This document shows, piece after piece, positions 26,106 through 45,984 of a stretch of 64,000 nt of DNA. A program made the translations under genes and the position numbers. Location: NCBI GenBank assembly GCA_019347675.1, contig JAHWKW010000001.1:1-64000 (forward strand). The letters are read 5' to 3'. The stretch's first letter is position 1. Each line of letters starts with the position of its first letter. The DNA comes from Actinomycetota bacterium (lineage in GTDB: Bacteria > Actinomycetota > Nitriliruptoria > Nitriliruptorales > JAHWKO01). A model generated the notes under the pieces. That model was given only the letters and a program-made list of their open reading frames with translations. It made no database searches and was not told where the DNA came from.

Positions 26106-27266
26106 TTACGGCAGTTCCCAGAGGCGGCGGTAGGGACCGGTCTTGGCCCAGTCCATGAGGTTGATGCGCCCAGCGGCGTTGGTCCACCAGCCGATCATGA
26201 CGGCCAGTTCGATGGGGGTGGCTAGGAAGAGATCGGTGTGGTCGACATCGGACTGGTCGGCCACGCGCGTTAGCACGTCCCCGATCTGCTGGGCCCAGCC
26301 GTTCGCGATCTCGGAGCTGCCAACGGTCGTGCGCCCGGGTCCGTCAGCGGGGGTGAGTATGACGCGGTGGCGGTATCGGTTGCCTGCGGAGATGTGCGCT
26401 GCCACTCGTGCGTCGACGTTGCGGGTCACCGAGAGCTCGACGCAGGCGCGGCCAGCATCGACCGGGCCGCGCCCGCCGCGGGTTTCGTTCAGCGGCGCTG
26501 GGTTCTCGGGGGCGGCGAGCGTCGTCCATGCGCCGTCTTCGCGGTGCAGCCGCAAGGTGCAGCCGGTGGGTTGCGAGAAGGCGTGGCCAAGCGCGACCGC
26601 TAGCGACAGATGGGCCTTCGCGGCGATGGTCACCTGGCAGGCGCCGTAGGCGGCCTTCAGCGCGCCGGTGGCGGCGTGCAGTGCGGATCGCAGGCGTTGT
26701 TCGGTGTTGGCGGTGAGATTTCCGTCCGTGAGGTGGTGGCGCCAGTCGAGGTTGAGGACGGCGCGGTCCCGCAGGGATGCCGTGTCGTCGTAGGTGACCA
26801 TGCGTACAACGGGGCTTGCGCCTGCCGTGTGGGCGTCCTTCAGGTGCCCGCGCACGTACCGCGAGGCGATCGCGGCGGAGGTGGTGGGCGGGTCGGCATC
26901 GGGGTCGACGACGTGGCCATGGCTGTCGCCGATCTCGACACCCATCCGGCTGACGAGCGCGGCGCCCTCCTGGGGAGTCATCCCGTCGAACACGGGAACG
27001 ATGCGCAGATGCTTGTTGCGGGCGGCGCGGGCGATGGCCGGTAGCTCCACCTTGGCGACGTAGGCGGATTGGATGATTCGTTCGTTAATCCAGAGGATGA
27101 CTCCTGAGCAGTTAGCGAGCTCGGCGAGGATGGTGTCAGTCGTGTCGTCGCCGACGTCCAGGTTCTCGACGTCGCGCCAGGGGTTGATGCCGTGCTCGCG
27201 CAGCGCCTTGACGACCTGACCACGCTCGATTCGGTCGCCGGTGTAGCTGATGAAGGCGCCGTTCAC
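26106..27266 (-). CDS. CBASS effector: TIR-SAVED NADase
   Basis: The 386-residue product starts GAFISYTGDRIERG, a TIR domain, with a probable catalytic Glu at residue 74 in YVAKVELPAIA. The C-terminal 190 residues end DHTDLFLATPIELAVMIGW and then INLMDW...YRRLWELP, typical of SAVED domains that bind cyclic oligonucleotides. Characterised TIR-SAVED effectors polymerise on a cyclic tri-adenylate signal and degrade NAD+ to abort infection. The GTG start overlaps the E1-JAB stop (GTGA), making it the last gene of the operon. Operon and domain order strongly support the role; the signal used here is unknown. Confidence 0.88.
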   Translation of the reverse strand: MNGAFISYTGDRIERGQVVKALREHGINPWRDVENLDVGDDTTDTILAELANCSGVILWINERIIQSAYVAKVELPAIARAARNKHLRIVPVFDGMTPQEGAALVSRMGVEIGDSHGHVVDPDADPPTTSAAIASRYVRGHLKDAHTAGASPVVRMVTYDDTASLRDRAVLNLDWRHHLTDGNLTANTEQRLRSALHAATGALKAAYGACQVTIAAKAHLSLAVALGHAFSQPTGCTLRLHREDGAWTTLAAPENPAPLNETRGGRGPVDAGRACVELSVTRNVDARVAAHISAGNRYRHRVILTPADGPGRTTVGSSEIANGWAQQIGDVLTRVADQSDVDHTDLFLATPIELAVMIGWWTNAAGRINLMDWAKTGPYRRLWELP

Positions 27267-29002
27267 GCGCCTTGTCCTTCGTAGTGGTCGGGGAGGTCCC
27301 CGGTGATGCAGATCTTGGCGCGCTTGAGGCCCGTCGGGCTGGTGGCGTAGGCCCGAAGCTCGGCGGCGGCGTCGCCATCGGGGCTGGGGTGGGCGATGAG
27401 GAGGATGGGAGTGTCGTTGGCGTCCGGGTCGGCGGCGACGGTCAGCATGGTGGCGAGGTCCAGCGGGCTCGGGTCCGGATCCGTCGTGTGGCTGTGCCAT
27501 TCACCGACGTAGCCGATGCGGGAGTCGTGTTCCCGCGCGTCGGCGATGACGGCTGCTGCCGTGTCGCCGGCGATGCGGTAGTTGCGCGGGTCGGCGTCTG
27601 CGTCGGGGATCTCGATGGCGTTGGCCACCAGCGTCCTCCCGTCGATGCGGCATCCGACGAGGACACCGCCGGTCTCGTCGGGCAGGGCGGCGCTGGCGGC
27701 GCCTCGCATGGTCCGCTGGGCGCGTTCGGTCACGTCGACGGTGATGGGCAGGTCCTCGGGGCGGACCCGGCCGGGCCGGTCGAAGGGCGGGTCGCCGGGG
27801 CGGATGACCTCGATGACTTCGTCGGGCTGGTCGTGCCGTCCGGTGAGATGGTCGATGGCGACGTTGGCGGCGACGTTCGCGGCGTGGGCGACAGACGCGG
27901 GTGGGGCGTTGTGGATCTGGGCTAGGCAGCCCGTCTCGGTGCCGACGTACTCCGCCTCGTCGCCGAGCGGCGGGATCTGCGGGTAGGCGTCGAGGTGCGT
28001 GCGAGCGGCGATGGGGGTGTCCCCGACGCCGGCCTGGCGTCGCACGCGCGCCACGGCCCCGCCGCGGAACAGCGCCACCGTCAGGTAGGGCCGGGCTGCG
28101 TCCTGGGCGACCCGCGCTGCGAGTTCGGCGAGACCACCGTGGCCGGTGGCGTCGATGGTGAGGTCCGCCGACTCGACCACGGCGCGGAGCCCGTCGGTGG
28201 TCCACACGTGCCCGTCGTGGGTCTCTTCAGGGATCGCCACGGTGACCCACGGGTATTGCTCGAGCTGCTCCTTGAGGGCGCCGGTCTTGGTGGTACCGGC
28301 GGGAGTGCCGGGGGCGGCCGCGTGGCGGATGAGGTTGGCCGGCCACAACAAGTCGTAGTCGAGCAGCCGCAGGTTACGCATGCCAGAGCGGGCAAGCTGG
28401 TCGGCGACGTGGGAGCCGATCGCGCCGACCCCGATGATCGCGACGCTCTTGCCATCCAGCAGGTCGGCGTCCGGGCCTGCACGTAGCAGCATCTCGTGCA
28501 CTCCCTTGGGGCGAAGGACCACGAGGTACAGGTCCCGGCCGCCGCCGCTGTCGTCGGTGTAGGTCAGCAGGACGGTGGCGACGAGCCCGGCCTGGTTGCG
28601 CCAGAACAGCCCGAACATCACGACCGGGTGGTTGCGCAGGTCGCTGTCCAGACGTTTCCGCTGCTTGTCGGTGAGGAACCGCCTGAACTCGTCGAGGTTC
28701 CGGGGCGGATGGGGGACGGACTCGCGGTAGAAGCACCGTGCACGGACCGCGCGACGGTCCTTGAGTCCGGCTGGGAGGTCGGTCGAAGCCGTGAACGCGC
28801 CGGGGTGTAGGTCGTACACGACGACCGGGCTTGGACGGCCGTCGGCTGACACGGCGTGCGTGAAGTGGAAATCACCGTGCTGTCCGTCGCCAGGGTGGCC
28901 TACCGAGAACTGTGTCGATCTCCACGAGCCCGACGACCTGGGGGATGTCCTCCTGCCAGTAGATCTCCGGGTTTCGGGCGTTCTCGACGTCGGCGAAGCC
29001 AC
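27263..29002 (-). CDS. CBASS E1-like (ThiF) protein fused to a JAB/JAMM isopeptidase
   Basis: This frame has an N-terminal domain of about 180 residues, an E1/ThiF nucleotide-binding fold (SVAIIGVGAIGSHVAD near 190), a candidate catalytic Cys in ETGCLAQI (about 347), and from about 430 a JAB domain with ETGGVLVG and EWHSHTTDPDPSPLD. In known type II CBASS, Cap2 is an E2-E1 fusion that conjugates the CD-NTase and Cap3 is a separate JAB protease that reverses it. Here E1 and JAB are joined. The true start is unclear: similarity appears to begin near QFSVGHPGD (28912), inside the end of the E2 gene and with no good start codon, so this may be one E2-E1-JAB protein split by a frameshift. Confidence 0.82.
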   Translation of the reverse strand: MASPTSRTPETRRSTGRRTSPRSSGSWRSTQFSVGHPGDGQHGDFHFTHAVSADGRPSPVVVYDLHPGAFTASTDLPAGLKDRRAVRARCFYRESVPHPPRNLDEFRRFLTDKQRKRLDSDLRNHPVVMFGLFWRNQAGLVATVLLTYTDDSGGGRDLYLVVLRPKGVHEMLLRAGPDADLLDGKSVAIIGVGAIGSHVADQLARSGMRNLRLLDYDLLWPANLIRHAAAPGTPAGTTKTGALKEQLEQYPWVTVAIPEETHDGHVWTTDGLRAVVESADLTIDATGHGGLAELAARVAQDAARPYLTVALFRGGAVARVRRQAGVGDTPIAARTHLDAYPQIPPLGDEAEYVGTETGCLAQIHNAPPASVAHAANVAANVAIDHLTGRHDQPDEVIEVIRPGDPPFDRPGRVRPEDLPITVDVTERAQRTMRGAASAALPDETGGVLVGCRIDGRTLVANAIEIPDADADPRNYRIAGDTAAAVIADAREHDSRIGYVGEWHSHTTDPDPSPLDLATMLTVAADPDANDTPILLIAHPSPDGDAAAELRAYATSPTGLKRAKICITGDLPDHYEGQGA

Positions 29003-29351
29003 GGTCGGCGTCGGTGGCCCACTCCTCGATGCGGTCGTACAAGCCCTGGAGGGTGGCCCACCGCTGGCTGGCGTCCTCCGTCTGCCACAGGCACAGCCGC
29101 TCCTGGTCGGCGTGCCACGTCGCGATGTCGGGAACGTGGATGAGCGGCGGCAGGTAGGGCCAAGAGGGCCGGACGATGATGGTCATGCGTTCTGCGTCGG
29201 TGTGCGCGCCCTCGAGCAGGGACGGGTGGGTGGGACCTTCCCAGCTGAAGGGCCCGGTCCGTTCGAACCCGTCGGCCTCGAGTTCGGTGACGAACTCGCG
29301 CAGTCGATCGGGGTCCGCGGCTAGGTCGAACGCGTCGGGCTCAGCGCCCAC
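28872..29351 (-). CDS. CBASS E2-like conjugating domain protein
   Basis: The 159-residue product resembles the E2 half of Cap2: WPYLPPLIHVP, then DQERLCLWQ with the likely catalytic Cys at residue 87, and helices after it (LQGLYDRIEEW). The GTG at 29351 overlaps the CD-NTase stop by 11 bases. Its 3' end overlaps the E1-JAB frame by about 130 bases in a different frame. Conserved sequence seems to pass from this frame near VEIDT into the other at QFSVG, pointing to a single polypeptide interrupted by one base, or to ribosomal frameshifting. Confidence 0.75.
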   Translation of the reverse strand: MGAEPDAFDLAADPDRLREFVTELEADGFERTGPFSWEGPTHPSLLEGAHTDAERMTIIVRPSWPYLPPLIHVPDIATWHADQERLCLWQTEDASQRWATLQGLYDRIEEWATDADRGFADVENARNPEIYWQEDIPQVVGLVEIDTVLGRPPWRRTAR

Positions 29352-30474
29352 CGAACGACCTCTCGGCAGTCCCTCCGGTCGCAACGTTCGCTGCCCCGGC
29401 GCCTCCCATCACCACGCCTGTGGATCGGCATCCGGGAGGGAGCGGGAAGACGTTGTCCATCTTGCGGTTGCCTCCCAGGATGTGCCGCCACTCGATGGCG
29501 GCCTGGCACGCGTCCTGCGTCGTGACGGCGCGCTGAGCGCGGCGGGCCAGCGCGTCGAGCGTCTCTCGGGCGGCCGCGACATCGTCGGGTGCAGGCGCCG
29601 GCGCGTAGGGCTGATCGAGCACGGGATCGCAAACCGGACGAGCGTCGACTTCGGCGAGACGGGCGGCCAGGAACTTGAGAGCCGACGCGGTCACGTCCGC
29701 CCAGGAGTCTCCCTGGATGTCGCCTGCGGCGAACCCCTCGTGTAGCGCGAACTCGTAGTACAGGAAGCTGGGCTTGGTGTCCTCGAGGTGGCTGCTCTTG
29801 ACCTGCTTGAGGGTCTTGACGGTCGGCACGAAGCCACCGGCTCCCCCGACGATCACGTCTCCGTTGCGCTCGCGGGTCTCATCGATGAGCTGGACCGGGT
29901 CAGTGCAATGCCAACCCCCGGTGCGCTGCCGATCGGCCCACGGTTGGGGGCGGTGCACCTCTGGGATGCCGTAGTGTCCGTTCCACCGGACCGCTGGGAC
30001 CACGTCGACGGAGAAGTCGAAGCCGAGTTTGTCGAGGTTGGCGATGACCCTGCTGACCCGCGACTGCTTCCAGTTGTACTCCTTGGCGGCGAGCCGGATG
30101 TAGTCGGGGGAGGGAACGCGGTCGGGTCCGAAGCTGACCTTCAGCGAACGTGGCTGTCGGACGAGGCGGCCCTGTTCGTCGAACGGCTTAAGAGCGCTAT
30201 CGAACAGGCCGTAGGCGTCGTCGGGGGCGATCGACTGCACCGTCTCGCCCATCAGTCGACCGAAGACGTCCACGTCCTTGCCGGGCCAGATCGACACCCT
30301 GCGGGCGTAGCTGCCGACGAGGACGTCCTTGAGTTCGCGGTCGCTCAGGGCTCGAGAGCCGTGCAGAACAGAGCGAACCTCCACATGGGCGGCGATCGCG
30401 ACGAGAGCGCGGTCTGCGAGGGCGATGTTCGAGTGCATCTCCCGGAACTGCTTCGGTAGAGGGTGGTTGGACAC
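29341..30474 (-). CDS. CD-NTase (cGAS/DncV-like nucleotidyltransferase) of CBASS
   Basis: The 377-residue product has the nucleotidyltransferase signature VLVGSYARRVSIWPGKDVDVF, with GS at 54-55 and Asp at 67 and 69. A third acidic residue follows in FDFSVDVV. The domain after it (CD-NTase OAS1-like helices, LEDTKPSFLYYEFALHEG) fits enzymes of 300-400 residues. It should make a cyclic oligonucleotide on phage infection that activates the TIR-SAVED effector. Like other CD-NTases conjugated by Cap2 it ends in a flexible Gly/Ala-rich tail, here ...ERSFGGR. Start is GTG, 44 bases after the DUF2188 gene. Confidence 0.88.
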   Translation of the reverse strand: MSNHPLPKQFREMHSNIALADRALVAIAAHVEVRSVLHGSRALSDRELKDVLVGSYARRVSIWPGKDVDVFGRLMGETVQSIAPDDAYGLFDSALKPFDEQGRLVRQPRSLKVSFGPDRVPSPDYIRLAAKEYNWKQSRVSRVIANLDKLGFDFSVDVVPAVRWNGHYGIPEVHRPQPWADRQRTGGWHCTDPVQLIDETRERNGDVIVGGAGGFVPTVKTLKQVKSSHLEDTKPSFLYYEFALHEGFAAGDIQGDSWADVTASALKFLAARLAEVDARPVCDPVLDQPYAPAPAPDDVAAARETLDALARRAQRAVTTQDACQAAIEWRHILGGNRKMDNVFPLPPGCRSTGVVMGGAGAANVATGGTAERSFGGR

Positions 30475-30518: not shown

Positions 30519-30761
30519 TCAGTGCTTCTTGTCGCGGGGCGGGAACGGGTCGTTACCTGGCGCGACGGTGTCCGAGTCCCGGATCTTGCCGTCGCGACCA
30601 TGTACGCGAACCTCACCCCCACTCTGGTTGCGGACGATCTCCTTCGCACGCCGGATGGCGTCGGACTGCGTGTCGGCGTGGCCGCTCGACCGCCGACCGC
30701 CGGGTTTCTTGATGTCCCATCCACCGTCGGGGTTGGGTACGACGTGACGGTTGGTTGGCAT
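30519..30761 (-). CDS. DUF2188 protein, first gene of the CBASS operon
   Basis: The 80-residue product, MPTNRHVVPNPDGGWDIKKPG then THADTQSDAIRRAKEIV-like sequence (GHADTQSDAIRRAKEIV), and GGEVRVHGRDGKIRDSDTV, matches DUF2188, a small domain with a WxVKxxG start and an HGRDGxIxxxxT end. Function unknown. It is on the same strand as, and 44 bases upstream of, the CD-NTase, so it is probably co-transcribed. The family is often near defence and mobile genes; I know of no defined role in CBASS. Confidence 0.75.
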   Translation of the reverse strand: MPTNRHVVPNPDGGWDIKKPGGRRSSGHADTQSDAIRRAKEIVRNQSGGEVRVHGRDGKIRDSDTVAPGNDPFPPRDKKH

Positions 30762-30803
30762 GGCATCGCCCTTTCGGTGTTCGGCCCGAAGGACTGTAGC
30801 ACC

Positions 30804-30832
30804 TTGACAGTATAGTACACAAACGTTATGCT
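30804..30832 (+). promoter_or_regulatory. Near-consensus sigma-70 promoter of the toxin-antitoxin operon
   Basis: TTGACA (30804-30809), a 17-base spacer and TATGCT (30827-30832) make a strong promoter for the toxin gene whose GTG is at 30844. The expected start of transcription lies about five bases before that codon, so the mRNA would be nearly leaderless. The spacer has the dyad GTATAGTAC, a possible operator for the XRE antitoxin. On the opposite strand the same region (TATACT) may also drive the CBASS operon. Confidence 0.65.
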
Positions 30833-30843
30833 GGGAGAGGCTG

Positions 30844-31206
30844 GTGCCGTACGAGATCAACTACACGGACGAGTTCGGGGAGTGGTGGGATGGGCTGTCG
30901 ATCGAGCAACAGGAGGCCATCATCGCGAGAGTCGAACTCCTGGAGGAACATGGTCCGGCGCTCGGTCGACCGACCGTCGATCGTGTCAATGGGTCGGCGT
31001 TCCACAACATGAAGGAGTTGCGGTGCAGCAGCTCCGGGACACTCCGAGTGCTGTTTGCCTTCGATCCGCGTCAAGAGGCGATCTTGCTGCTTGGAGGCGA
31101 TAAGTCGGGTGACTGGGATGCCTGGTACGACGAGGCGATACCTGCCGCCGACGCGCTCTACGCCGAGTATCTCCGAAGCCTGCGCAGGGAAGGGATCATC
31201 GAATGA
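30844..31206 (+). CDS. HigB/RelE-type toxin (Gp49-like)
   Basis: The 120-residue product has the HigB/Gp49 pattern: FGEWWDGLSIEQQEAIIARV, then NMKELRCSSSGTLRVLFAFDP and LLLGGDKSGDWDAWYDEAI. These toxins are ribosome-dependent mRNA interferases, with basic residues around KELR. Length is normal. The stop overlaps the antitoxin ATG (ATGA at 31203). Toxin-first order is typical of higBA. It runs divergent from the CBASS operon across an 83-bp promoter region. Confidence 0.85.
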   Translation: MPYEINYTDEFGEWWDGLSIEQQEAIIARVELLEEHGPALGRPTVDRVNGSAFHNMKELRCSSSGTLRVLFAFDPRQEAILLLGGDKSGDWDAWYDEAIPAADALYAEYLRSLRREGIIE

Positions 31207-32246
31207 GCGGCAGCAAGAAGTTCTCGAAGCTGAAGGCCGACCTCTACGAGCGCAGTCCGGAGTCGCGCCAGCGAGTCGCGGAGAAGGTGGCAGAGCTCAC
31301 AGAGGAGCTCGGTCTCGCCGAGTTGCGCTCGAGGATGCAGAGAACCCAGACGGAACTGGGCGAGCTGATCGGGACCTCGCAGTCAGGCGTCTCACGGCTT
31401 GAGCGTCAGCGTGACATCTTGGTTTCGACACTTCGCGAGTACGTGGTCGCAACGGGGGGGCGACTCCGGATCGTGGCCGATTACCCGGATCGCGCCTATG
31501 AGATTCGTCTGCCCGTGCTCGGCGAGCAAGGCGCCATGGGGCGCTCACCGCGTAGCTTCCATGTCGTCTGGCAGGACCCCCACACGAGACAGCTGGTCCA
31601 CGTTGGCCGCCTGCGGTTCACGGGGGAGAAGTTCCTCTTCGCGTACACACCAGAGGCAGAACTCCACGCCGGGTTCGAGCCCTTCTGTGAGTTCCCAGAC
31701 CTGCGTGCACAGTATGAGTCAGAAGATCTGTTCCCCTTCTTCGCTGACCGGATCGTGTCGTCTGCGCGACTGGACTACGACAGCCAACTCGACGCGCTCG
31801 GGCTGACGAGAGAAGAAGCGACACCGGTGGAGTTGCTCGCCCGCTCGTGGGGACAGAGTCCCCACGACACCATCCAGATTGTCCCAGAACCACAGCCCCA
31901 ACCTGGTGGAGCCGAATGGTTGCCGTTCCTTGTCTCGGGGGTGAGCCATGCCCACGAGGACGCCGAAGGTGATACGCCCGAGGCTGTTACGGAACGAGTC
32001 GCCAGCCTCCAACGCGGCCAGAGACTCGAGTGGCGTGACGAGCCAGCCAACCCCTTCAACGACCGAGCCATTCGCCTGGAAGTCGACGGCTGCCTGGTTG
32101 GATGGATTCCCGATTACCTACTTGACTACGTGCACAAGAAGCGCAATGAGAACTACAGCTTCCAGGTAATGGTGGAGCGGGCGAACGGAGGCGATCGGCC
32201 CTGGCACCTTCGCCTTCTCTGCCGTCTTGAGGTCGTCCCCAGCTGA
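31203..32246 (+). CDS. XRE antitoxin extended by HipA-N-like and HIRAN domains
   Basis: Residues 1-105 are a complete HigA-type antitoxin: SPESRQRVAEKV, LRSRMQRTQTELGELIGTSQ (HTH), SGVSRLERQRDI and LREYVVATGGRLRIVA. Normal antitoxins stop here. This one goes on for 240 residues. The part at about 115-230 (HVGRLRFTGEKFLFAYTP, DLFPFFADRI, DALGLTREEATPVELLA) resembles the N-terminal subdomain of HipA. The part at about 236-345 (RGQRLEWRDEPANPFNDRAI, GCLVGWIPDYLLDYV) resembles a HIRAN domain, which binds 3' DNA ends in HLTF-like proteins. It overlaps the toxin gene by four bases. Confidence 0.8.
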   Translation: MSGSKKFSKLKADLYERSPESRQRVAEKVAELTEELGLAELRSRMQRTQTELGELIGTSQSGVSRLERQRDILVSTLREYVVATGGRLRIVADYPDRAYEIRLPVLGEQGAMGRSPRSFHVVWQDPHTRQLVHVGRLRFTGEKFLFAYTPEAELHAGFEPFCEFPDLRAQYESEDLFPFFADRIVSSARLDYDSQLDALGLTREEATPVELLARSWGQSPHDTIQIVPEPQPQPGGAEWLPFLVSGVSHAHEDAEGDTPEAVTERVASLQRGQRLEWRDEPANPFNDRAIRLEVDGCLVGWIPDYLLDYVHKKRNENYSFQVMVERANGGDRPWHLRLLCRLEVVPS

Positions 32247-32285: not shown

Positions 32286-32672
32286 TCAGTCGTCCAGGTC
32301 GGCTTCGCCGCTCTCGTGCGCCTCGCCGAAGATCAGCCCATCGAACCGCGCTGCGGCGTTGGCGTCCATGCCGGGCATGACGTGCTGGTAGGTGTCGGCT
32401 GTGAAGGAGTGGGAGTGGTGGCCGAGGCGCTCCTGAACGACCTTGGGGTTCTCGCCATCGGCCAGGAGAAGGGTCGCGTGGGTGTGGCGGAGATCTTGTA
32501 GGGGCCGGATGCGTGGGAGGCCCGACTCGACGATCATCTCGCGGACGGTCTCGGTGACGTGGTCTGGGTGCCATGGGTTGCCGTCGTCGCGACAGAACAC
32601 GAGATCGTGGTCGTGCCAGATGGGGGACCGCAGCCGAGTCTCGGTCTGACGTCGACGGGCGTCGCGCAGCAC
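32286..32672 (-). pseudogene. Tyrosine recombinase, C-terminal fragment
   Basis: The frame encodes only the end of a phage-type integrase: HDHDLVFCRDDGNPWHP, DLRHTHATLLL (catalytic HxxR), GHHSHSFTADTYQHV (His and the nucleophilic Tyr). The core-binding domain and first catalytic Arg are absent; upstream of about 32685 the sequence is unrelated. It closely resembles the C-terminus of the intact integrase at 44447-45760 but is on the other strand. It shows that another element once sat in this island. Confidence 0.8.
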
Positions 32673-35297: not shown

Positions 35298-36988
35298 CTA
35301 GCCCCAATCCTTCAATAGGCCGCTCGGGTGGCGTTCTGAGCATTGAGGGTGGCCGGTGAGGACGGCGTGGCCGGGTTTGGGGGTCTCGGGGGAGGGTCGG
35401 GGCGCCGTTTGGTCCGACGACGGGTGCTTGTTCGCCGACCATTTCGCGGTGTCGAAGTGGTGTGCAGCGTGAGGTGGGCGGGCGAGGCCCGCCATGGCCG
35501 CAAGCGGGCCGGGTCAGCCGGGGGCGGGTTGGAGGGCGGCCAGCCGGTGGTAGGCGCCGAGCAGTTGGGGGCTCCAGGGCCAGTTGTCGGCCAGCCGCAG
35601 CCAGGTCTGGCGTGATCGCCGGGCGACGCGTGCGGCGGCGTGGAGGATGGTGTGGCGCAGCCGTCGGGGTTCGGCCACGGCCAGCTCACCCTCGAGCAGC
35701 AGGGTCTGGGTGGCGGCCAGCAGCAGCGCGGCGACGAGCATCAGCTGCAGCCAGGCCGCGTTGGACGTGAACCGGGCGAACGGGAAGCGTGACTGGCCGA
35801 TGTCCTTGAGGTTCTTGATGCGGTTCTCGACCTGGGCGTGGGCACGGTGGCGGGCCTCGAGCAGCGTCGGGTCACCGGTCTGGTTGGTCACGATGACCTG
35901 GTGCCGCCAGCCGTCGTGGTCCCACAGCTTGAGCTGCGCGCCCGGGTGGGGCCGCTCACGACGCACGATCACCCGGGTGCCTTCTGGCATCCAGTCGGGG
36001 ACGGCCTCGAGCTCGGCGACCTGCGCACCTTTGCGGGGACGGCCGTCACCGTCGAGCGCCGGACGCCAGTCGTCGTGCCCCAAGCGGTGGATGTGGCCGT
36101 CGAACGCCTCGTTGGCGGGCATCCCGATCGAGAAGGCCAGGTTGCGCCCGTGGAGCCCGCCGATGACCTTGTGCGAGTAGCCGGCGATGTCGGTGCGCAC
36201 CACGATTTGGTGCACCACCTCGCCAGGATCGTCACCGTCGCGGTGGCCTGCCTGCCACTGGTCGGGCAGTGCGGCGATCGCGTCGTCGATGACCTGCAGC
36301 TGGTCGGTGGCGTTGTTGGCGTTGGCGTTGCCCGGCCGCAGCCGGCCTGCCAGCGGCACCCCGACCGGTTCGGCGAATACGAACAGCGGGTGGAACCCGA
36401 ACCCGCCCTTGAAGTGCGGCGCGGCGCCCTCCTTGTTCTCCGAGTGGACCTCGAACACCGACGCGTCCACATCCAAGATCAGCTCGCCGGGGTCGAGGCG
36501 GTCCAACAGCGACGCGGTCACGTTCGCCCGCGCCGATCGCAGCTCGTCGCGGACCTCGTCGTCGATGGCGTCGACGACTCGCCACACCGTCGCGTCCGAG
36601 GCGACCTGCCCGAACAGGCTCGGCTGGTTGCGCAGCACCGCGACGTCCGAGATGCACCGGCCGCCGGCCGCTAGCGTCATCGCGATCTGGGTCAGCACCC
36701 GGCCCCGGTCGTGCCGGGAACGGCGCTGCACCGTTGTCGACATCGCCGCCGACAGCGCCGAAGGGATCCCGAGTTTCTGGGCCAGACCACCCACAAGGTG
36801 GGTACCGACCTGCGAGGCGATCTGGCGTCCGCCGTCGGCTACTCGAACCCGCTCCACCACACTGGTAGCGTTCATCAACGAGGTGCCCTCCGCCCGCGGC
36901 TCTGGTTCTTCAGACAAACCACAGTCTCGCGGCGCTGGAGGGCACTTTCACGTATCTCGCGCAGCCCCTACTGCAAGATCACGGCTAG
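35298..36988 (-). mobile_element. IS1380-family insertion sequence
   Basis: A single transposase gene is flanked by imperfect terminal inverted repeats. The left end (plus strand) starts CTAGCCCCAATCCTTCAATA, and the right end read on the minus strand starts CTAGCCGTGATCTTGCAGTA; about two thirds of positions agree. I see no matching 4-bp target duplication (CTGT versus GAGG). The right end interrupts the 3' end of the GIY-YIG-like gene. Confidence 0.75.
35514..36875 (-). CDS. IS1380-family DDE transposase
   Basis: The 453-residue product shows IS1380 features: QIAMTLAAGGRCISDVAVL, GELILDVDASVFEVHSENK with the first catalytic Asp, KGGFGFHPLFVFA, RTDIAGYSHKV and a late HAQVENRIKNLKD with the probable catalytic Glu. 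I chose the ATG at 36875, which follows a GGAGGG site; an upstream in-frame start would add 14 residues. The gene looks intact, so the element may be mobile. Confidence 0.9.
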   Translation of the reverse strand: MNATSVVERVRVADGGRQIASQVGTHLVGGLAQKLGIPSALSAAMSTTVQRRSRHDRGRVLTQIAMTLAAGGRCISDVAVLRNQPSLFGQVASDATVWRVVDAIDDEVRDELRSARANVTASLLDRLDPGELILDVDASVFEVHSENKEGAAPHFKGGFGFHPLFVFAEPVGVPLAGRLRPGNANANNATDQLQVIDDAIAALPDQWQAGHRDGDDPGEVVHQIVVRTDIAGYSHKVIGGLHGRNLAFSIGMPANEAFDGHIHRLGHDDWRPALDGDGRPRKGAQVAELEAVPDWMPEGTRVIVRRERPHPGAQLKLWDHDGWRHQVIVTNQTGDPTLLEARHRAHAQVENRIKNLKDIGQSRFPFARFTSNAAWLQLMLVAALLLAATQTLLLEGELAVAEPRRLRHTILHAAARVARRSRQTWLRLADNWPWSPQLLGAYHRLAALQPAPG

Positions 36989-37550
36989 GAGGGTCCATGG
37001 GTTCGCGGTCGAAGTTGCTGAGGAGAGATATGCAGCCACTCTCGATCGCTGCGCGGGACCCGCGGTCCGGCACGGCGACATGGACCACGCTCATAGCTCC
37101 GATGTGCCGGCTGACCGCCCTCTCGAGCTGCATTTCCTTGTCTCGGACGTCTCGCGGTGCGCTCGATCCGCTGGCCCAGGACGTCGCAGCCTCCGGGTAG
37201 CCGTCGCGCTGGATCAGCGCCGTCCCGACGTGGAGCCGGAAGACCGATCCGCGATGGTTCCCCCCGCCGGGGTTGCGGCCCCCTACACGGCCTTTGTGTG
37301 CTCGGAGGCGGGTCCAGAGCCTCGTCTTCGACGATTCGCTGAGGGCGTGGGTACCGACGCGCACGACGCGGGGCGTCTCACCATCCTCTCGCAGCTCGCC
37401 CGACTCGAAGAAGAAGTAGACACCGTGAGTTGGCCATCCGTCCCGACCCGTCGCCTCCCCGAGAAGACGAGGTCCGCCGTGTAAGGTGGCCGCAGCGTGC
37501 AGGAGCGAGTACAGCTCGTTGAGGGTGTTGAATCGCTCCGTCAGCTCCAC
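36948..37550 (-). pseudogene. GIY-YIG-like protein truncated by the insertion sequence
   Basis: The product starts VELTERFNTLNELYSLL and has HGVYFFFESGE, then RVVRVGTHAL and LWTRLRAHKG, which resembles a degenerate GIY-YIG nuclease core. Its last native residues are about SNFDREPMDPP; after 36988 the frame reads into the insertion element and stops at 36948. The GTG start overlaps the stop of the DUF6884-like gene, so it was the last gene of a three-gene operon. Nuclease activity is uncertain because the usual GIY...YIG residues are altered. Confidence 0.6.
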
Positions 37551-38298
37551 GCCCCGCTCCTCCGGAACCGAACCCGTTCGGCGCCGAGTTTTACCCGCGA
37601 CGTCTCCCAACCCGCGGCGAGCCATCCCCGAGCGTGGCTGTGACTTCCGCTGCCGTCGTTCGCCCACCAAGCGGAGTACTCCCTGGCACTCCGCGGAAGC
37701 GGGCTGCCGCGGATGTGCTCGATGTCCGACAACCTCGCGTCCCACCTCTCGTCGGCACGCGACGAGAGGTGGTCGAACACCGGCCGATACTTGCCGCGCG
37801 GCGGAGCGTACGTGCGACCGACGGAGCCAGGCTCTCCCCTGCGGCTACCGCGCCGCTCACGTGACGAGATTGCCACGTCCGGCCCACCGGCGTAGTGGGA
37901 GAGCTTCCGTCCCATCGACATGCCCTCCGTGGGGACGACGACTTCGGCACCCGCATCTTCGACTCCTCGCCTGAGTCCGTGGCCGTAGAACGCCTTCCCG
38001 GCGTGGATCTCGAACGTGTGCATACCGAGTCACCCAACTTGTCGCCGAGTGCACTCAGGACCGCAGCCCTCCATTCCCGTCGACGGCGCCGCGACACCGT
38101 CGCGAGAGTCCGGTCGTACGGCTCAGTCACCGTGTCCGGATCCAACAGCCCATGCTCGGCCGACAGGATGAACCACAGGTTGCAACCGGACTCGACGGCT
38201 CGACGTGCTCCCGTGAACACCGGCGAGGTGTAGAGCTCCTTCGCCGGTGACGGCGGGCTCCGCTTCGACTTCACGCACCCCACCAAGCCGATACGCAC
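37541..38298 (-). pseudogene. DUF6884/YaaA-like protein with a frameshift
   Basis: From the GTG at 38298 (preceded by GGGGAGG) the product reads VRIGLVGCVKSKR, ELYTSPVFTGARR and WFILSAEHGLLDPD, which matches YaaA/DUF6884-like proteins. Near 38010-38025 the frame must change to continue as FEIHAGKAFYGHGLRRGV and onward to a C-terminal domain (KYRPVFDHL, AREYSAWWAND) that ends at 37541. One base gained or lost explains the break, unless these are two overlapping genes. It starts 22 bases after the STAND NTPase gene and overlaps the GIY-YIG-like gene. Confidence 0.65.
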
Positions 38299-38320
38299 GC
38301 CCAAACCTCCCCGCCTGGTC

Positions 38321-40927
38321 TTACGACCTCAAGCGCTCCGCCAGGTTCTGGCAGTGCCTGTTAGCTGCATCGAGTTTTAGGCCCATCTCCGCGTAGCGCA
38401 ACGCCCCTGCGGTGTCTTTCAGATGCATGTGCAGCCACGCCAGTCGCGACAGGTCCGTGGCGTCGGCCTCCGAGCGCCTCAGGACGAACACGTCACGCAA
38501 GCGTTCAGCGATGATGCGCTTCTCGTCCGTGTCGACGCTCAGCTGGCCCTCCGCGAGCAGCTGGTTCAAGCGGTTAGCAGCCGCGCTGACGTCAGTGATC
38601 GTCGCATCTGGCCGCTGTGCCAACTCAAGGCGTGCCTGGACTTCTCCGAGAGGGTCACCGGCTCGCTCCTTTAGCGCCGTGAGCTTCCTCCACGCCATCA
38701 CGTCTCCCGGGCGGTCCTCGATGTACCTCTCGACTTGCTGGACGGCTCGTTTGAGACCTTGTGGACGGGGGAGTTGCTGCAGATAGAGATCTGCGAGGTG
38801 GAGGCGTGCCGGGGCGTACTTGCCTGAGACGTACCGAAGTACCGGCTGTACATCGTCCAGCGATTCCCCGGCCTCCAGCTTCTGAGCTATCGATGACATG
38901 AGCCGTTCGACTCGTGGCTCGACACCTCTCTCGGAGTGAATCGTCTTCGATGCGCCGAAGAGTCGAATGATCTGCGTGTCCGCCTCGATAGCCGTCTTGT
39001 AGGGGTGAACCGTTAACTTTCGTCTGCCGAACACGGCAGCGGCGAGCGGCACACTGATTACTTCCTCCCCGTCTACCGGCGATGACGCGACCTCAATCAG
39101 CGAGGCCCTCTGGAGCGTCCTGAGGGCATGTGCGACATCTATACGTTCCTGGTTCTCCGGCCGAAGGACTGCCGCCTCCAGCGCCAGGCGAGGCACGTTC
39201 GACCTCCAGTTGCTCAACGTCAGGAAGACTCGCTGGACGGGGGCGGCAAGCGCCTCGAACGTCCGCTCAAAGAGAGCATCGAGCAGTTCCTCCTTGCTCG
39301 CCATGATCCGCTCGACATCAACACGATGCCCAGCGGTGGCAGCTTCGCCCAGCAGAACCTTTACGACGTAGGGGTGACCGTCGCTTTCTTCATAAACCGC
39401 GGCCAAGTAATCCTCTATGAGTAGCTGACCTATCCCTAGCCGGGTCCCCGTGGCCTGTGCGAGCTCGCGGAACTCGGGCTCCTCCATTCCGCGAACCTCG
39501 ACCGGGTAATCCGACTTGTACTCGCTCTGACGCGTCGTTATGAGGACCTTGTTCGGAAGACGAATCGCCGTATCGAGGAAGTGGTAGAGCTCGCTCTTCT
39601 CCTGCACCGTTTCAAAGTTGTCAAGGACGAAGAGCGCGGGACCACCGAGCCGATCCGTGCCGGAGAGACACTCGCGAAGGTAGTCTTGGGCAGAATCCCA
39701 CGTGCCATCCGGCATGGCCTCGATCACCGAGACGAAGTCCTCGGCGACCTCCGAGATTGTAAGCACTTGAGGTCGCACGACACGGGGGCCGTGTTCCAGA
39801 AGATCAATGTCACGCGCGCTGAACCACAGGATGAACTCGTACGTCTCGGTCGCCGTACCTAGGTCGTGCAGCACTTGCAGTGCCAGCGAGGTCTTGCCGA
39901 TGCCGCCTCGACCGAGCAACGTGACCATGGGGTGGCGATGTTCATTCTCGAGAACCTCCCGCAGTTCTTGCTCAAGCCGGGGGCGCCGCACGTAATCAGG
40001 GCGGGGCGGCGGCAGCGTGGCGAAGGTGTTGCCCACCACGTCAAGGTTCGGCGGCGGAGCGGTCTCGCTCGTGGGTCGGGCACTCGGGGGTGTCTTCCAA
40101 CGGCTTGTGTCAAGGGCAACACGATCGTCCGAGTGGTACGAGAGCCCCTCACATGTGTTCCCGCTGCACTTCCCGTTCGCTACGTAGATGTCCCTGATGT
40201 CGACGTCCGTCGTTATGAGGTTCACGGGGCGTGGCGCATCCCAATAGATGTAGATCCCATCCCGGTAGTTATAGTCCGGGGATGACTTGAGGTGGGCGAG
40301 AGCGCTCGCATCGCCACCCAACTCGATGACTCGGAACTTGCCGGACAAGTTCTGATGCAAATACACCCAAGGACGACGGAAGAGCTCTAGCTCATCGGTG
40401 ATTGCCGTTAGGCTCGCCTGCAGCGGTCGGGCCGCCTTGGAACACGCTGCAGCCAGGGGAGCCCCATGCCCGCGCGTCGCGTTGCGCAGCCTCGCGAAGC
40501 TGTCCAACCAGCGCCTCAATGAAACCTTGCCTTGGGACGGTTCGACCTTCTCGAACTCACCTAGAGCCGACTCCAGGGCGGTGACGCAACTTCGCTGCCA
40601 GGCCCCGGAGTCCTCAGCGAACCCCTGCGTGAGCTGAGCCCGGACGGTGCGACTCTCGTACAGAGCTACGGCCGCGGCAGGACCTTGCAGCACTTCGTGG
40701 AGAACCTTGACCCAGGACCCGATGGAGTCTGCACGCACGAGTTCGTGCTCAAGGGCGTAACGGTGCTGCTGCCGCTCGCCCGGCACGGAACTCAGTAGTC
40801 CGAGAGCGATTAGCTTCGTTGCTAGCTCGCCCAGATAGAGCAACTCGTAGAAGTAGGCGGTATCCGAGTCGCCTCTGGCCTTCTCGACGCGGTCCCAGCT
40901 GCGCGCGATCGGTATGAACTCCCCCAC
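38321..40927 (-). CDS. HEPN-STAND NTPase-TPR protein, probable anti-phage sensor
   Basis: The 868-residue product has an N-terminal helical domain (1-190) with LRNATRGHG at 147-155, the R-N-x4-H motif of HEPN RNases. A middle segment (200-290) is unrecognised. A STAND/NB-ARC NTPase follows: Walker A GRGGIGKT (339-346), Walker B ALFVLDNF (431-438), VLITTRQ (461-467) and a winged-helix region. The C-terminal third is helical and TPR-like (AWRKLTALKERAGDP, ALRYAEMGL). STAND proteins oligomerise on ligand binding; fused HEPN domains usually cut RNA. This fits NLR-like immune proteins such as Avs relatives, though I do not place it in a named type. Confidence 0.8.
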   Translation of the reverse strand: MGEFIPIARSWDRVEKARGDSDTAYFYELLYLGELATKLIALGLLSSVPGERQQHRYALEHELVRADSIGSWVKVLHEVLQGPAAAVALYESRTVRAQLTQGFAEDSGAWQRSCVTALESALGEFEKVEPSQGKVSLRRWLDSFARLRNATRGHGAPLAAACSKAARPLQASLTAITDELELFRRPWVYLHQNLSGKFRVIELGGDASALAHLKSSPDYNYRDGIYIYWDAPRPVNLITTDVDIRDIYVANGKCSGNTCEGLSYHSDDRVALDTSRWKTPPSARPTSETAPPPNLDVVGNTFATLPPPRPDYVRRPRLEQELREVLENEHRHPMVTLLGRGGIGKTSLALQVLHDLGTATETYEFILWFSARDIDLLEHGPRVVRPQVLTISEVAEDFVSVIEAMPDGTWDSAQDYLRECLSGTDRLGGPALFVLDNFETVQEKSELYHFLDTAIRLPNKVLITTRQSEYKSDYPVEVRGMEEPEFRELAQATGTRLGIGQLLIEDYLAAVYEESDGHPYVVKVLLGEAATAGHRVDVERIMASKEELLDALFERTFEALAAPVQRVFLTLSNWRSNVPRLALEAAVLRPENQERIDVAHALRTLQRASLIEVASSPVDGEEVISVPLAAAVFGRRKLTVHPYKTAIEADTQIIRLFGASKTIHSERGVEPRVERLMSSIAQKLEAGESLDDVQPVLRYVSGKYAPARLHLADLYLQQLPRPQGLKRAVQQVERYIEDRPGDVMAWRKLTALKERAGDPLGEVQARLELAQRPDATITDVSAAANRLNQLLAEGQLSVDTDEKRIIAERLRDVFVLRRSEADATDLSRLAWLHMHLKDTAGALRYAEMGLKLDAANRHCQNLAERLRS

Positions 40928-42803: not shown

Positions 42804-43970
42804 TCACACGCTGATCGTGCCTTCCACCTGTCGCCGTTGCCCGCGTTGGCCGTATCGGGTCGGCCCCTCCCATTCGAGGAGGAGGCGACGCTGACCGTCT
42901 CTGGTACGCGGTCCCACGAGCAGCCGCACGATGCGTGACGCACGGCCGGAGCCGACCAGTGCCTCGACAAGCGCCAGGCGGAGGATGGGCCGCAGGTTCT
43001 CCTCGGTCACGCCGGTGTGCCGGAGCGGACCCAGGGGTTCTGGAACGTGGGCCAGGAATCCCATCTGCCCGAGAGGGTTCGGTTCGTCGAAGAGCGCCCT
43101 TCGGATACCGATCTCCGCGAGGTCATCGGGCGAGTACGTTGAGGTTCCGGTGTTGAAGGACACCTCACCCAACACTCCCGGCCCCCGCTGACCTCCGTCT
43201 CTGGTGAGCGTCACGACGACCCGGGTCGATGACCCGGCCGTCACCTCGTTCTCGACCGATGTCGGTCGGGCGGCTCCGACCGTGTCGCCGAAGACAACCT
43301 GCACCGGCCGTGCCGCACCGACCCCGTCAGGCCGGAGACGCTGGAGCGCGTGGGCCACGTCTCGGTCGCGAACGTTCGCTTCGACGGTGATGGTCGTCCC
43401 GTCGTCGCGGATGGATGATGCGCGAAGGATGACGTTGCCGATCTTGCACCACGGGGCGACGTCCTCGGAGGCGATCGCATCAAGCCGGGCTGCTACCCGC
43501 GTTGCCAGTCGCTCAGGGCTATCGACGGTCTCCGTCGTGAAGTACGTGCGGACCTCGCTGAGGAAGTCGCGTTGGTGACCAGCCATGTCATCCACGTCCA
43601 GCACCCAGACCCCGACTCGGAGGCCCCGCTCGATCGCACGTAGGTACTCGGCATGCGTGGCCGAGTAGCCCGTGGCGGCGTCCTGACTGCCGTACCGCGA
43701 ACCTAAGATCCCGACGTAGACGTCGCTCAGCTCCACCTCGCTCAAGTAGGCCTGCTCGGGGTCCTGATCGCGTGCGCCGAACTCCTCGAACCAGATCGGC
43801 TCCGCTCCCAGCTCGCGGATCGCCTCCGCCACCGCGCGACGTTCGTCTTCCAGTCCGTCCATGACACTGGAGATGAACACACGCTTGTCGGCGGCCCAGT
43901 CGCGGACCTGCTCGCGAGAGAGGCGGGCCGCCGCAGCGGCGCGATCGATGATCAGCGACTCGTCGTTCAC
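42804..43970 (-). CDS. DUF4062-domain protein
   Basis: The 388-residue product has near residues 30-120 a DUF4062 domain: KRVFISSVMDGLEDERRAV, AEPIWFEEFG, LSDVYVGILGSRYG. DUF4062 is a Rossmann-like domain seen at the start of STAND ATPases and other defence-linked proteins. The C-terminal 230 residues form an unrecognised beta-rich region and a final domain (TGVTEENLRPILRLAL, LLVGPRTRDGQ). No NTPase motif is present. The GTG at 43970 precedes the conserved part; a longer version from 44102 is possible but lacks support. Confidence 0.7.
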   Translation of the reverse strand: MNDESLIIDRAAAAARLSREQVRDWAADKRVFISSVMDGLEDERRAVAEAIRELGAEPIWFEEFGARDQDPEQAYLSEVELSDVYVGILGSRYGSQDAATGYSATHAEYLRAIERGLRVGVWVLDVDDMAGHQRDFLSEVRTYFTTETVDSPERLATRVAARLDAIASEDVAPWCKIGNVILRASSIRDDGTTITVEANVRDRDVAHALQRLRPDGVGAARPVQVVFGDTVGAARPTSVENEVTAGSSTRVVVTLTRDGGQRGPGVLGEVSFNTGTSTYSPDDLAEIGIRRALFDEPNPLGQMGFLAHVPEPLGPLRHTGVTEENLRPILRLALVEALVGSGRASRIVRLLVGPRTRDGQRRLLLEWEGPTRYGQRGQRRQVEGTISV

Positions 43971-44155
43971 AGGTCGAAGGTTACGGTCACGCGCTGCCGT
44001 CGCGGTGACCTCCACATGGTCTGTACCGAGGGTCGTTGACTCGCCTCCACAACTGGTATAGACATGTGAACCAGTTGGCATCGAGGGACGGAGCTTCGGC
44101 ACAGGCAGGCGGGTAACCGTCGCGCCGGACCGGCCGGAGCAGAGGGAGACGAACC

Positions 44156-44395
44156 ATGACCGTGATGGACGTGCCGGCCACGATCTCGCTGGAGCAGGCG
44201 GGCGAGCTACTCGGCGTCAGCCGGCGGACCGCCTACCGGGCAGCGGCCCGCGGGCAGATCCCGACGATCCGCATCGGGCGGCGGTGGTTCGTGCCGACCG
44301 CGAGGCTCCTGGATCTCCTCGGGCTGTCCCCTGAGGACGTCGACTTCGGTCCTGCCGCGGACGAGGGCGACGAGCTCGTGGCCGAGGCGTCGTGA
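44156..44395 (+). CDS. xis: Excisionase-type helix-turn-helix protein
   Basis: The 79-residue product has a MerR-like winged helix (ISLEQAGELLGVSRRTAYRAA, then RIGRRWFVPTARLLDLLG), the usual form of excisionases encoded upstream of tyrosine integrases. GGGAGACG precedes the ATG. The integrase starts about 50 bases downstream on the same strand. It should bend the attachment DNA and favour excision. Confidence 0.8.
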   Translation: MTVMDVPATISLEQAGELLGVSRRTAYRAAARGQIPTIRIGRRWFVPTARLLDLLGLSPEDVDFGPAADEGDELVAEAS

Positions 44396-44446: not shown

Positions 44447-45760
44447 ATGCCGGGGAACGTCTTCAAGCGCTGCCGCGGATGCGGCCGTCGCATCAAGCCC
44501 AAGAAGCGAGGCTGCGACAACCCGAAGTGCGCCAAGCCGGGCGTCCGCTGGTCGTTCGTGATCGACCTCGGCCGCCGGGGCGACGGGAAGCGTCGGCAGG
44601 TGCTCCGATCGGGCTTCGAGACCAAGGGCGAGGCCGAGCGCGCGCTGGAGGAGTTCGTCAACCAGAGCCGCCAGGGCGTCGAGCCGACCAACATCACGGT
44701 GAAGGACTACCTCCTCGATCGGTGGCTGCCCCGGACGCGGACGTCGGTCAAGACGCGCAATGACCGCGAGACCCACATGCGCGCCTACGTCATCCCGCGC
44801 ATCGGTGGCTTCAAGCTCGTGAACCTCACGGGGGAGGAGCTCAACGAGATGTACGACGACCTCGCCGTGCGGGGTCGCACGCAGCGCCGCGACCCGGAGC
44901 TCGGCTGGGGACTGTCGCCGACGACGATCCGGCGCATCCACACCCAGCTACACAAGGCCTTCGCCGACGCGATGCGCTGGGGCCTTATCATCCGCAACCC
45001 CTGCGACCAGGCCGACCCGCCGTCCACGACCGAGGTAAAAGCGCGGGCCCTCGCCTCGCGTAACGTCTACTCGTGGGCGCAGCTGCAGCGCCTCGTCCGC
45101 GCGGCCGCGGAGGACCGGCTCTTCGCGATGTGGCAGCTGTTCGTTTCGACCGGCATGCGCCGCAGCGAGATGGCCGCCCTGCGCTGGGACCACGTCGACC
45201 TCGAGGCCGCGATGCTCTCGGTCGTGCGCGGAGCGGTGGAGGACCGCGGCAAGGTCTACGAGAAGGAGTTCCCCAAGTCCTCCTCGTCACGGCGCGCCGT
45301 CGAGCTGGCACCCGCCGACGTCGACGTGCTGGACCTCCACCGCAAGGTCCAGGAGGAAGAGGCCAAAGCCGCCCAGGAGGCCTGGAAGCACAAGGGCCAC
45401 GTCTTCACCTCACCGGTCGGCGGCCGGCTCTACCCGCCGGACATCACCAAGATGTTCCACGCGTTGACCGACGCGGCCGGTCTGCCGCGGATCCGCCTCC
45501 ACGACATGAGACACACCCACGCGACGCTGCTGCTCAAGGCCGGGGAGGTCACCAAGGTCGTCACCGAGCGCCTCGGCCACTCAACGACCGCCTACACCCA
45601 GGACGCCTACCAGCACGTCCTGCCCGGCATGCAGCGCGACGCCGCCACCCGCTTCCACGAGCGCCTCGCCAAGGGCGACGGCGACGACGAGGACGCCGCC
45701 GACGAGCCCGAAACGCGACACCAGGAACAGCCCGAGAACGACCCCGAGGGGGATGCATGA
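44447..45760 (+). CDS. int: Tyrosine-type site-specific integrase
   Basis: The 437-residue product opens with a Cys motif (CRGCGRRIKPKKRGCDNPKC), then a SAM-like core-binding domain (NITVKDYLLDRWLPRTR) and a catalytic domain with Arg in STGMRRSEMAAL, HDMRHTHATLLL (HxxR), LGHS and Tyr in AYTQDAYQHV. All catalytic residues are present. The C-terminal tail is acidic. Its 3' end lies about 135 bases from tRNA-Ser, the standard arrangement for an element integrated into that gene's 3' end. Confidence 0.93.
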   Translation: MPGNVFKRCRGCGRRIKPKKRGCDNPKCAKPGVRWSFVIDLGRRGDGKRRQVLRSGFETKGEAERALEEFVNQSRQGVEPTNITVKDYLLDRWLPRTRTSVKTRNDRETHMRAYVIPRIGGFKLVNLTGEELNEMYDDLAVRGRTQRRDPELGWGLSPTTIRRIHTQLHKAFADAMRWGLIIRNPCDQADPPSTTEVKARALASRNVYSWAQLQRLVRAAAEDRLFAMWQLFVSTGMRRSEMAALRWDHVDLEAAMLSVVRGAVEDRGKVYEKEFPKSSSSRRAVELAPADVDVLDLHRKVQEEEAKAAQEAWKHKGHVFTSPVGGRLYPPDITKMFHALTDAAGLPRIRLHDMRHTHATLLLKAGEVTKVVTERLGHSTTAYTQDAYQHVLPGMQRDAATRFHERLAKGDGDDEDAADEPETRHQEQPENDPEGDA

Positions 45761-45835: not shown

Positions 45836-45895
45836 CCCCCGAAGCGGTCGAGGCAGCTTCCTGGCGGAAACCGCCTCTGACCTGGGAAAACGCGG

Positions 45896-45984
45896 CGGAG
45901 GGAGAGGGATTCGAACCCTCGAGACCCTCACGGGCCTACCCGCTTTCGAGGCGGGCGCACTCGGCCGGACTATGCGATCCCTCC
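45896..45984 (-). tRNA. tRNA-Ser (CGA), likely attachment site of the island
   Basis: On the minus strand the gene runs from GGAGGGA (5' acceptor strand) to TCCCTCC-G. It has a T arm GAGGG-TTCGAAT-CCCTC, a long variable arm as in class II tRNAs, and the anticodon loop CTCGAAA flanked by CCCGC/GCGGG. CCA is not encoded. Its 3' end faces the integrase gene, so the crossover is likely within the T arm and acceptor sequence. Confidence 0.92.

Follow-up and report, generated by a model that had tools for sequence, protein, structure and literature searches.

A 64,000-nt stretch of an actinomycetotal genome (GCA_019347675.1, contig JAHWKW010000001.1, positions 1 to 64,000; hereafter the window) has three tandem genes on its minus strand. 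In the order of transcription they encode a STAND NTPase, M57A, and M57B, and the last of them runs into an insertion sequence. The features are as follows, in coordinates of the window:

38321..40927, minus strand: STAND (NB-ARC) NTPase gene, 868 aa, intact (Pfam NB-ARC, E 8.7e-11; full-length homologues)
37541..38298, minus strand: PDC-M57A, consisting of DUF6884 (YaaA-like) and a C-terminal DUF7662, frameshifted near 38020-38030 (Pfam, PADLOC, alignment with homologue L027)
36985..37550, minus strand: PDC-M57B, of a GIY-YIG-like nuclease family, 3' end gone (PADLOC, comparison with L027, family conservation)
35302..36984, minus strand: IS1380-family insertion sequence with its transposase at 35514-36917, which ends M57B (transpos_IS1380 match, match to contig C38, CTAG flanks)

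M57A starts at GTG 38298, behind GGGGAGG, and M57B at GTG 37550. These starts confirm the spacing given in the initial annotation, a gap of 22 bases followed by overlapping genes: 22 bases separate the STAND gene from M57A, and M57B overlaps the end of M57A (stop codon 37543-37541) by 10 bases. With so short a gap and a common strand, the STAND gene and M57A may share a transcript here. The same annotation had assigned positions 36948-40927 to a possible three-gene defence operon. The three tandem genes are real, but 36948-36984 belongs to the IS1380 element. Base composition is 61.9% GC in the STAND gene, about 67% in the M57 genes, and 69.8% in the window as a whole.

The transposase matches the NCBIfam model transpos_IS1380 with E 2.3e-88. 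Another contig of the same genome, C38, starts with 127 bases that are 100% identical to window positions 36862-36988. This match marks the end of the element, and with CTAG on both sides the element is delimited to 35302-36984. The lost C-terminus of M57B was found neither beyond the far side of the element nor elsewhere in the window. That it is missing there despite CTAG at both ends points to recombination between copies of the element, or to a loss that came earlier, rather than to one simple insertion. Two copies of IS1380 in the genome, the one in the window and the one at the start of C38, border on CTAG, suggesting a preference for this target.

The two M57 genes are both broken. M57A is divided between two frames, of which the first matches DUF6884 (E 1e-28, over positions 1-88 only of a 135-position profile) and the second matches DUF7662 (E 1.4e-14). 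The break falls within DUF6884, the N-terminal part running from 38298 to about 38025 and the C-terminal part being the overlapping open reading frame 38023-37541. The intact M57A homologue in L027, a genome of the same taxonomic order, aligns straight over the break. The PADLOC model of PDC-M57A matches with E 1.7e-22, in the first-frame part only, and the motifs CxxxK and LSAxxG are both present. M57B matches its PADLOC model with E 2.9e-49 over positions 2-192 of 238. It is 63% identical to the intact copy in L027 over 186 aa, at which point homology stops in the window. The conserved end of the family, WLG...SGLWNxxH, is gone, and the residues lost are kept in 36-38 of 38 family members. 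In their place the annotated protein ends with RDLAVGAARDT, which derives from the IS1380 element. To judge from the sequence, the M57 pair as annotated is non-functional, a degraded member of PDC-M57. It resembles this PADLOC candidate in that both genes match the models and are adjacent on one strand, and it differs from PDC-M57 generally in that both genes are broken and in that M57A carries the uncommon C-terminal DUF7662.

The initial annotation had described the locus as apparently decaying. This applies to M57A, which is frameshifted, and to M57B, which is truncated, but not to the STAND gene, which is intact over its full length. Nor does it apply to the sequence RVG that M57B has in place of YIG. 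I considered this substitution as a sign of decay and rejected the idea, since RVG is common to the whole M57B family and the departure from YIG is therefore a family trait. A nuclease-like third gene was rightly seen by and large, and the feature that made it look degenerate is shared family-wide. It might also be argued that decay of the pair has gone less far than it seems, the frameshift in M57A being an error of sequencing or assembly, or else the mark of a functional split gene. The assembly is a draft of 76 contigs, and the two frames overlap, so that a single base is at issue. I consider this quite unlikely. The site has no homopolymer run, and in any event the truncation of M57B by IS1380 is independent of it and removes invariant residues, so that the pair is broken even if the frameshift is an error.

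The STAND protein can be divided into four regions:

about 1-180: helical N-terminus, containing R148-N149-x4-H154
about 185-300: beta-rich middle
about 315-530: NTPase
C-terminus: TPR-like

Intact Walker motifs had been claimed for this protein, and they are there, Walker A as GRGGIGKT and Walker B as LFVLDNFE. In a Pfam scan NB-ARC is the best match and NACHT falls below its cut-off. The TPR match is weak in the window protein (E 0.059) and clear at the same place in a homologue, L149 (TPR_1, E 7e-5). The PADLOC families, Avs models included, give no match at E 10. The protein thus resembles the NLR-like defence proteins of the Avs/bNACHT type in joining a STAND NTPase to C-terminal helical repeats, and like them it is likely to be an oligomerising sensor. 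It differs from them in finding no match in PADLOC, in scoring better as NB-ARC than as NACHT, and in its N-terminal domain.

Then there is the question of what that N-terminal domain might be. It contains R148-N149-A-T-R-G-H154, the HEPN-type R-N-x4-H that had been noted in this domain at the outset, and three homologues, each from a different phylum, all have R148, N149, T151, R152, G153, H154, G155, and A156. In their alignment no other block of the domain is as well conserved as RNxTRGHGA. The arrangement Rx4-6H, with a polar residue after the arginine, is the signature of HEPN RNases (PMC3710099). AlphaFold2 predicts residues 7-179 to be all helical, with low pLDDT, and in this low-confidence model the motif closes a helix and comes ahead of the last long one, as it does in HEPN domains (PMC3710099). 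It is probable, on the motif and this low-confidence prediction, that the N-terminus is a HEPN domain.

An alternative view is that it is some other helical effector or adaptor domain and no RNase at all. Pfam and profile searches and PDB sequence searches with the N-terminus returned no HEPN match, the confidence of the structural model is low, and every Foldseek match found with it had E > 0.3. Against this view stand the R-N-x4-H itself with its invariant polar asparagine, its position in the part of the domain that varies least, and its HEPN-like placement among the helices (PMC3710099). I regard the alternative as unlikely. The label HEPN-STAND-TPR given to the protein in the initial annotation can be kept in part: NB-ARC and a HEPN-type motif are present, TPR is weak here and clear in L149, and the fold and profile searches did not return HEPN. 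Bacterial fusions of HEPN, STAND, and TPR were tabulated as early as 2013 (Anantharaman et al. 2013, PMC3710099), and the window protein follows the same order, a helical N-terminus with Rx4-6H, a STAND NTPase, and TPR. The comparison is with the fusions as described there; the window N-terminus is placed in HEPN by its motif only, and no S1 domain is seen in the window protein.

The STAND gene is most likely a self-contained suicide RNase sensor of HEPN type. The TPR-like C-terminus, or perhaps the middle domain, would sense a signal of infection, and the NB-ARC module would then oligomerise with ATP. The R-N-x4-H site in the N-terminus would thereby become an active RNase, cutting cellular or phage RNA and leading to dormancy or death.

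The family to which it belongs is rare and scattered over three phyla. Three full-length members were found in total, the window copy included. One of the other two is L149, from Pseudomonadota (39% identity), which stands alone amid housekeeping genes. The other is L142, from Chloroflexota (28-30% identity), which lies with a transposase fragment on a contig of 5.5 kb, offering little context. Neither has M57 genes beside it. A search of 397 Actinobacteriota genomes with the N-terminus gave no real match, and a two-row profile run against 347 Actinobacteriota genomes gave nothing except the window protein itself. No close relative turned up when genome contigs and viral contigs were scanned for sequence patterns, or in tblastn of plasmids and phages with the window protein. 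When the homologues served as queries, plasmids gave matches to the NTPase region only. L142 and L149 came from samples of Chloroflexota and Pseudomonadota, and searches at the level of class yielded no further full-length relatives.

The M57 genes, for their part, are widespread. An alignment of nine M57B sequences was searched against genome contigs, and the best 80 of 286 relatives, from bacteria and archaea, were kept. M57A is the same-strand neighbour of M57B in 68 of these 80 loci, preceding it in 24 and following it in 44, and in three more (L091, L092, L116) the two are fused, fusions occurring in both orders. M57A is therefore adjacent or fused in 71 of the 80. The search used M57B alone, so the adjacency of M57A is an independent result. 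In loci where both were called as genes, they most often overlap by 4 bases, and such overlaps, along with the fusions, imply a complex. Adjacency in either order and fusion strongly suggest, on genomic grounds, that M57A and M57B form one complex. DUF7662 occurs near only 8 of the 80 loci.

The surroundings of the pair are varied. McrBC and HNH genes are found in L027, GmrSD with Eco57I- and SNF2-type genes in L033, and HNH with a NERD-UvrD helicase in L028. Among 120 neighbours sampled, a few belong to restriction or mobile-element families and many are ordinary genes, so that the enrichment in defence genes around M57, a check proposed along with the three-gene operon, turned out to be modest, with McrBC, GmrSD, and Eco57I-type genes beside some pairs. 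The notion that the pair always needs a third gene was rejected in view of this diversity. An HNH nuclease family lies beside the M57 genes of two genomes that belong to the same taxonomic order as the window (L028:9320-11182 and L027:9146-11723), only one of which has M57A. In three genomes of Nitriliruptoraceae (L054, L059, L060) M57B is divergent and M57A is missing, and the neighbourhood, which is conserved, is not one of defence. PADLOC lists PDC-M57 as a candidate for phage defence without a mechanism. A literature search found no paper naming PDC-M57 and, in the sources searched, no phage test.

What might the pair do where it is intact? The structure of the L092 fusion was predicted from 68 sequences with a mean pLDDT of 90.7, and the top fold match of its first half is YaaA (5caj, probability 1.00), with viral DUF6884 proteins also matching. 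The YaaA-type partner proposed for this locus is thus upheld, by the DUF6884 match and by a fused homologue that is predicted to fold like YaaA of E. coli. DUF6884 shares the DNA-binding cleft of YaaA, along with the CxxxK and LSAxxG motifs, according to the authors of the Pfam family (PMC11701544). Of its relatives, YfjM binds abasic sites and RNA-base lesions, YaaA acts in oxidative stress (PMC11701544), and DpdC acts in the 7-deazaguanine modification of DNA (PMC12839542). M57A has the motifs and the predicted fold of this DUF328-DUF6884 group. It differs from DpdC, which modifies DNA as part of a large dpd cluster, in being paired with M57B, with no dpd genes.

M57B is less easily placed. 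By fold, all matches of the fused model fell on the M57A half. The invariants of the family, GxY, RVG, R, E, and N, follow the order of those in GIY-YIG nucleases, and in the second half of L092 GVY, RVG, R258, E321, E352, and N lie on a predicted beta-beta-alpha core with pLDDT > 90. When M57B was aligned by hhalign with 26 true GIY-YIG domains, the motifs came into register, weakly (P 0.038). Pfam GIY-YIG matched none of nine members at E 1. The tyrosine of YIG is arginine throughout the family, so catalysis, if any, must be altered, and the change could even mean that M57B is not a nuclease.

I propose, tentatively, that intact M57A and M57B constitute a self-contained defence of two proteins. 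M57A, with its YaaA/DpdC-type fold, would recognise a DNA base that is modified or damaged, probably by flipping it into a pocket, and M57B, a divergent GIY-YIG-like nuclease without the tyrosine of YIG, would cut where that base is recognised. The pair would then correspond to a modification-dependent restriction enzyme divided between two proteins, a form of restriction not described before in its mechanism. There is a working precedent in CMoRE (PD-T4-3), which defends its host by means of a GIY-YIG nuclease joined to a base sensor (PMC12923530). The likeness to the proposed M57AB is one of function: CMoRE is a single protein, its sensor has another fold, and its YIG tyrosine is intact.

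The main rival to base recognition and cutting is a role in repair. The pair may serve mainly in the repair or modification of DNA, as YaaA, YfjM (PMC11701544), and DpdC (PMC12839542) do, and merely travel on mobile elements. The roles of these DUF6884 relatives speak for this, as do weak matches to DpdC, the occurrence of DUF6884-type proteins in phages, and the many neighbours of M57 that are ordinary or mobile-element genes. It is less easily reconciled with the sporadic and mobile distribution of M57, with its presence inside clusters of McrBC and of GmrSD/Eco57I, and with its standing as a PADLOC defence candidate. I regard a repair role as possible, if somewhat doubtful.

It remains to ask whether the STAND gene and the M57 pair are one system or two neighbours. 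The genes called in the 80 M57B loci include no STAND relative, the nearest thing being one insignificant P-loop match, and 40 genomes bearing M57B, searched whole, contain no full-length STAND relative. Both STAND relatives lack M57 neighbours, as described above. An intact trio in another genome was thus looked for from both sides, through M57B loci and through STAND relatives, and none was found. That STAND homologues are not linked to M57 genes was named beforehand as the outcome on which a three-gene claim fails, and the claim is given up here. The STAND gene is intact and the other two are dead, so the three have not been kept together.

One may still imagine a genuine operon, a rare combination peculiar to this lineage, in which M57A and M57B are effectors that the STAND protein activates on sensing infection. 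The genes are in tandem, the gap of 22 bases allows for co-transcription, and pairs containing a nuclease have repeatedly been recruited by unrelated immune systems, including the STAND system AVAST (PMC12799240). Against such a partnership are the lack of linkage in the 80 loci and the 40 genomes and beside either STAND relative, the loss of M57A and M57B with the STAND gene retained, and the difference in GC content. I consider it very improbable. The view I think probable is that two independent candidate defence units, an intact STAND gene and a degraded PDC-M57, each with its own proposed mechanism, came to be neighbours by chance in a mobile defence island.

The first annotation did not recognise the combination as a described system. 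Its parts were on record, the M57 pair as PDC-M57 in PADLOC and the HEPN-STAND-TPR fusions in the list of 2013 (PMC3710099). The STAND gene and the M57 pair each belong to a known kind, and the locus offers no new category of system. The three-gene NLR system can be struck from the list as a false entry, and two leads take its place. One is a rare, stand-alone STAND family of HEPN type over three phyla. The other, and the most useful, is the intact M57AB pair found elsewhere, which is widespread. As the fold of M57A is one that reads or edits unusual DNA bases, a trial of M57AB on phages whose DNA is modified could bring to light modification-dependent restriction in two parts, and the natural fusions L091, L092, and L116 are good targets for structures and assays.

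The rest of the island contains further genes of interest. An apparently complete operon resembling CBASS type II, with a CD-NTase, E1/JAB, and SAVED-TIR, occupies 26106-30474 on the minus strand, with another gene adjoining it:

29341-30474, minus strand: CBASS CD-NTase
28872-29351, minus strand: CBASS small gene
27263-29002, minus strand: CBASS E1-JAB fusion
26106-27500, minus strand: CBASS SAVED-TIR effector
30519-30860: DUF2188/PDC-S16 gene adjoining the CBASS operon

A pair resembling a toxin and antitoxin follows at 30844-32246 on the plus strand, a Gp49/RelE-type protein and then a 347-aa HTH protein that is much extended at its C-terminus. A tyrosine integrase (44447-45760, plus strand) lies beside tRNA-Ser (45894-45984, minus strand), with an excisionase-like HTH gene at 44156-44395, and a further integrase fragment occupies 32286-32672. 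No exact repeat of at least 14 bases, as might mark att sites, connects the tRNA-Ser or tRNA-Met regions with the rest of the window. Also inside the island is a gene for a DUF4062 protein of 432 aa (42804-44102, minus strand), which matches nothing in PADLOC. Fusions of DUF4062 with STAND NTPases are frequent.
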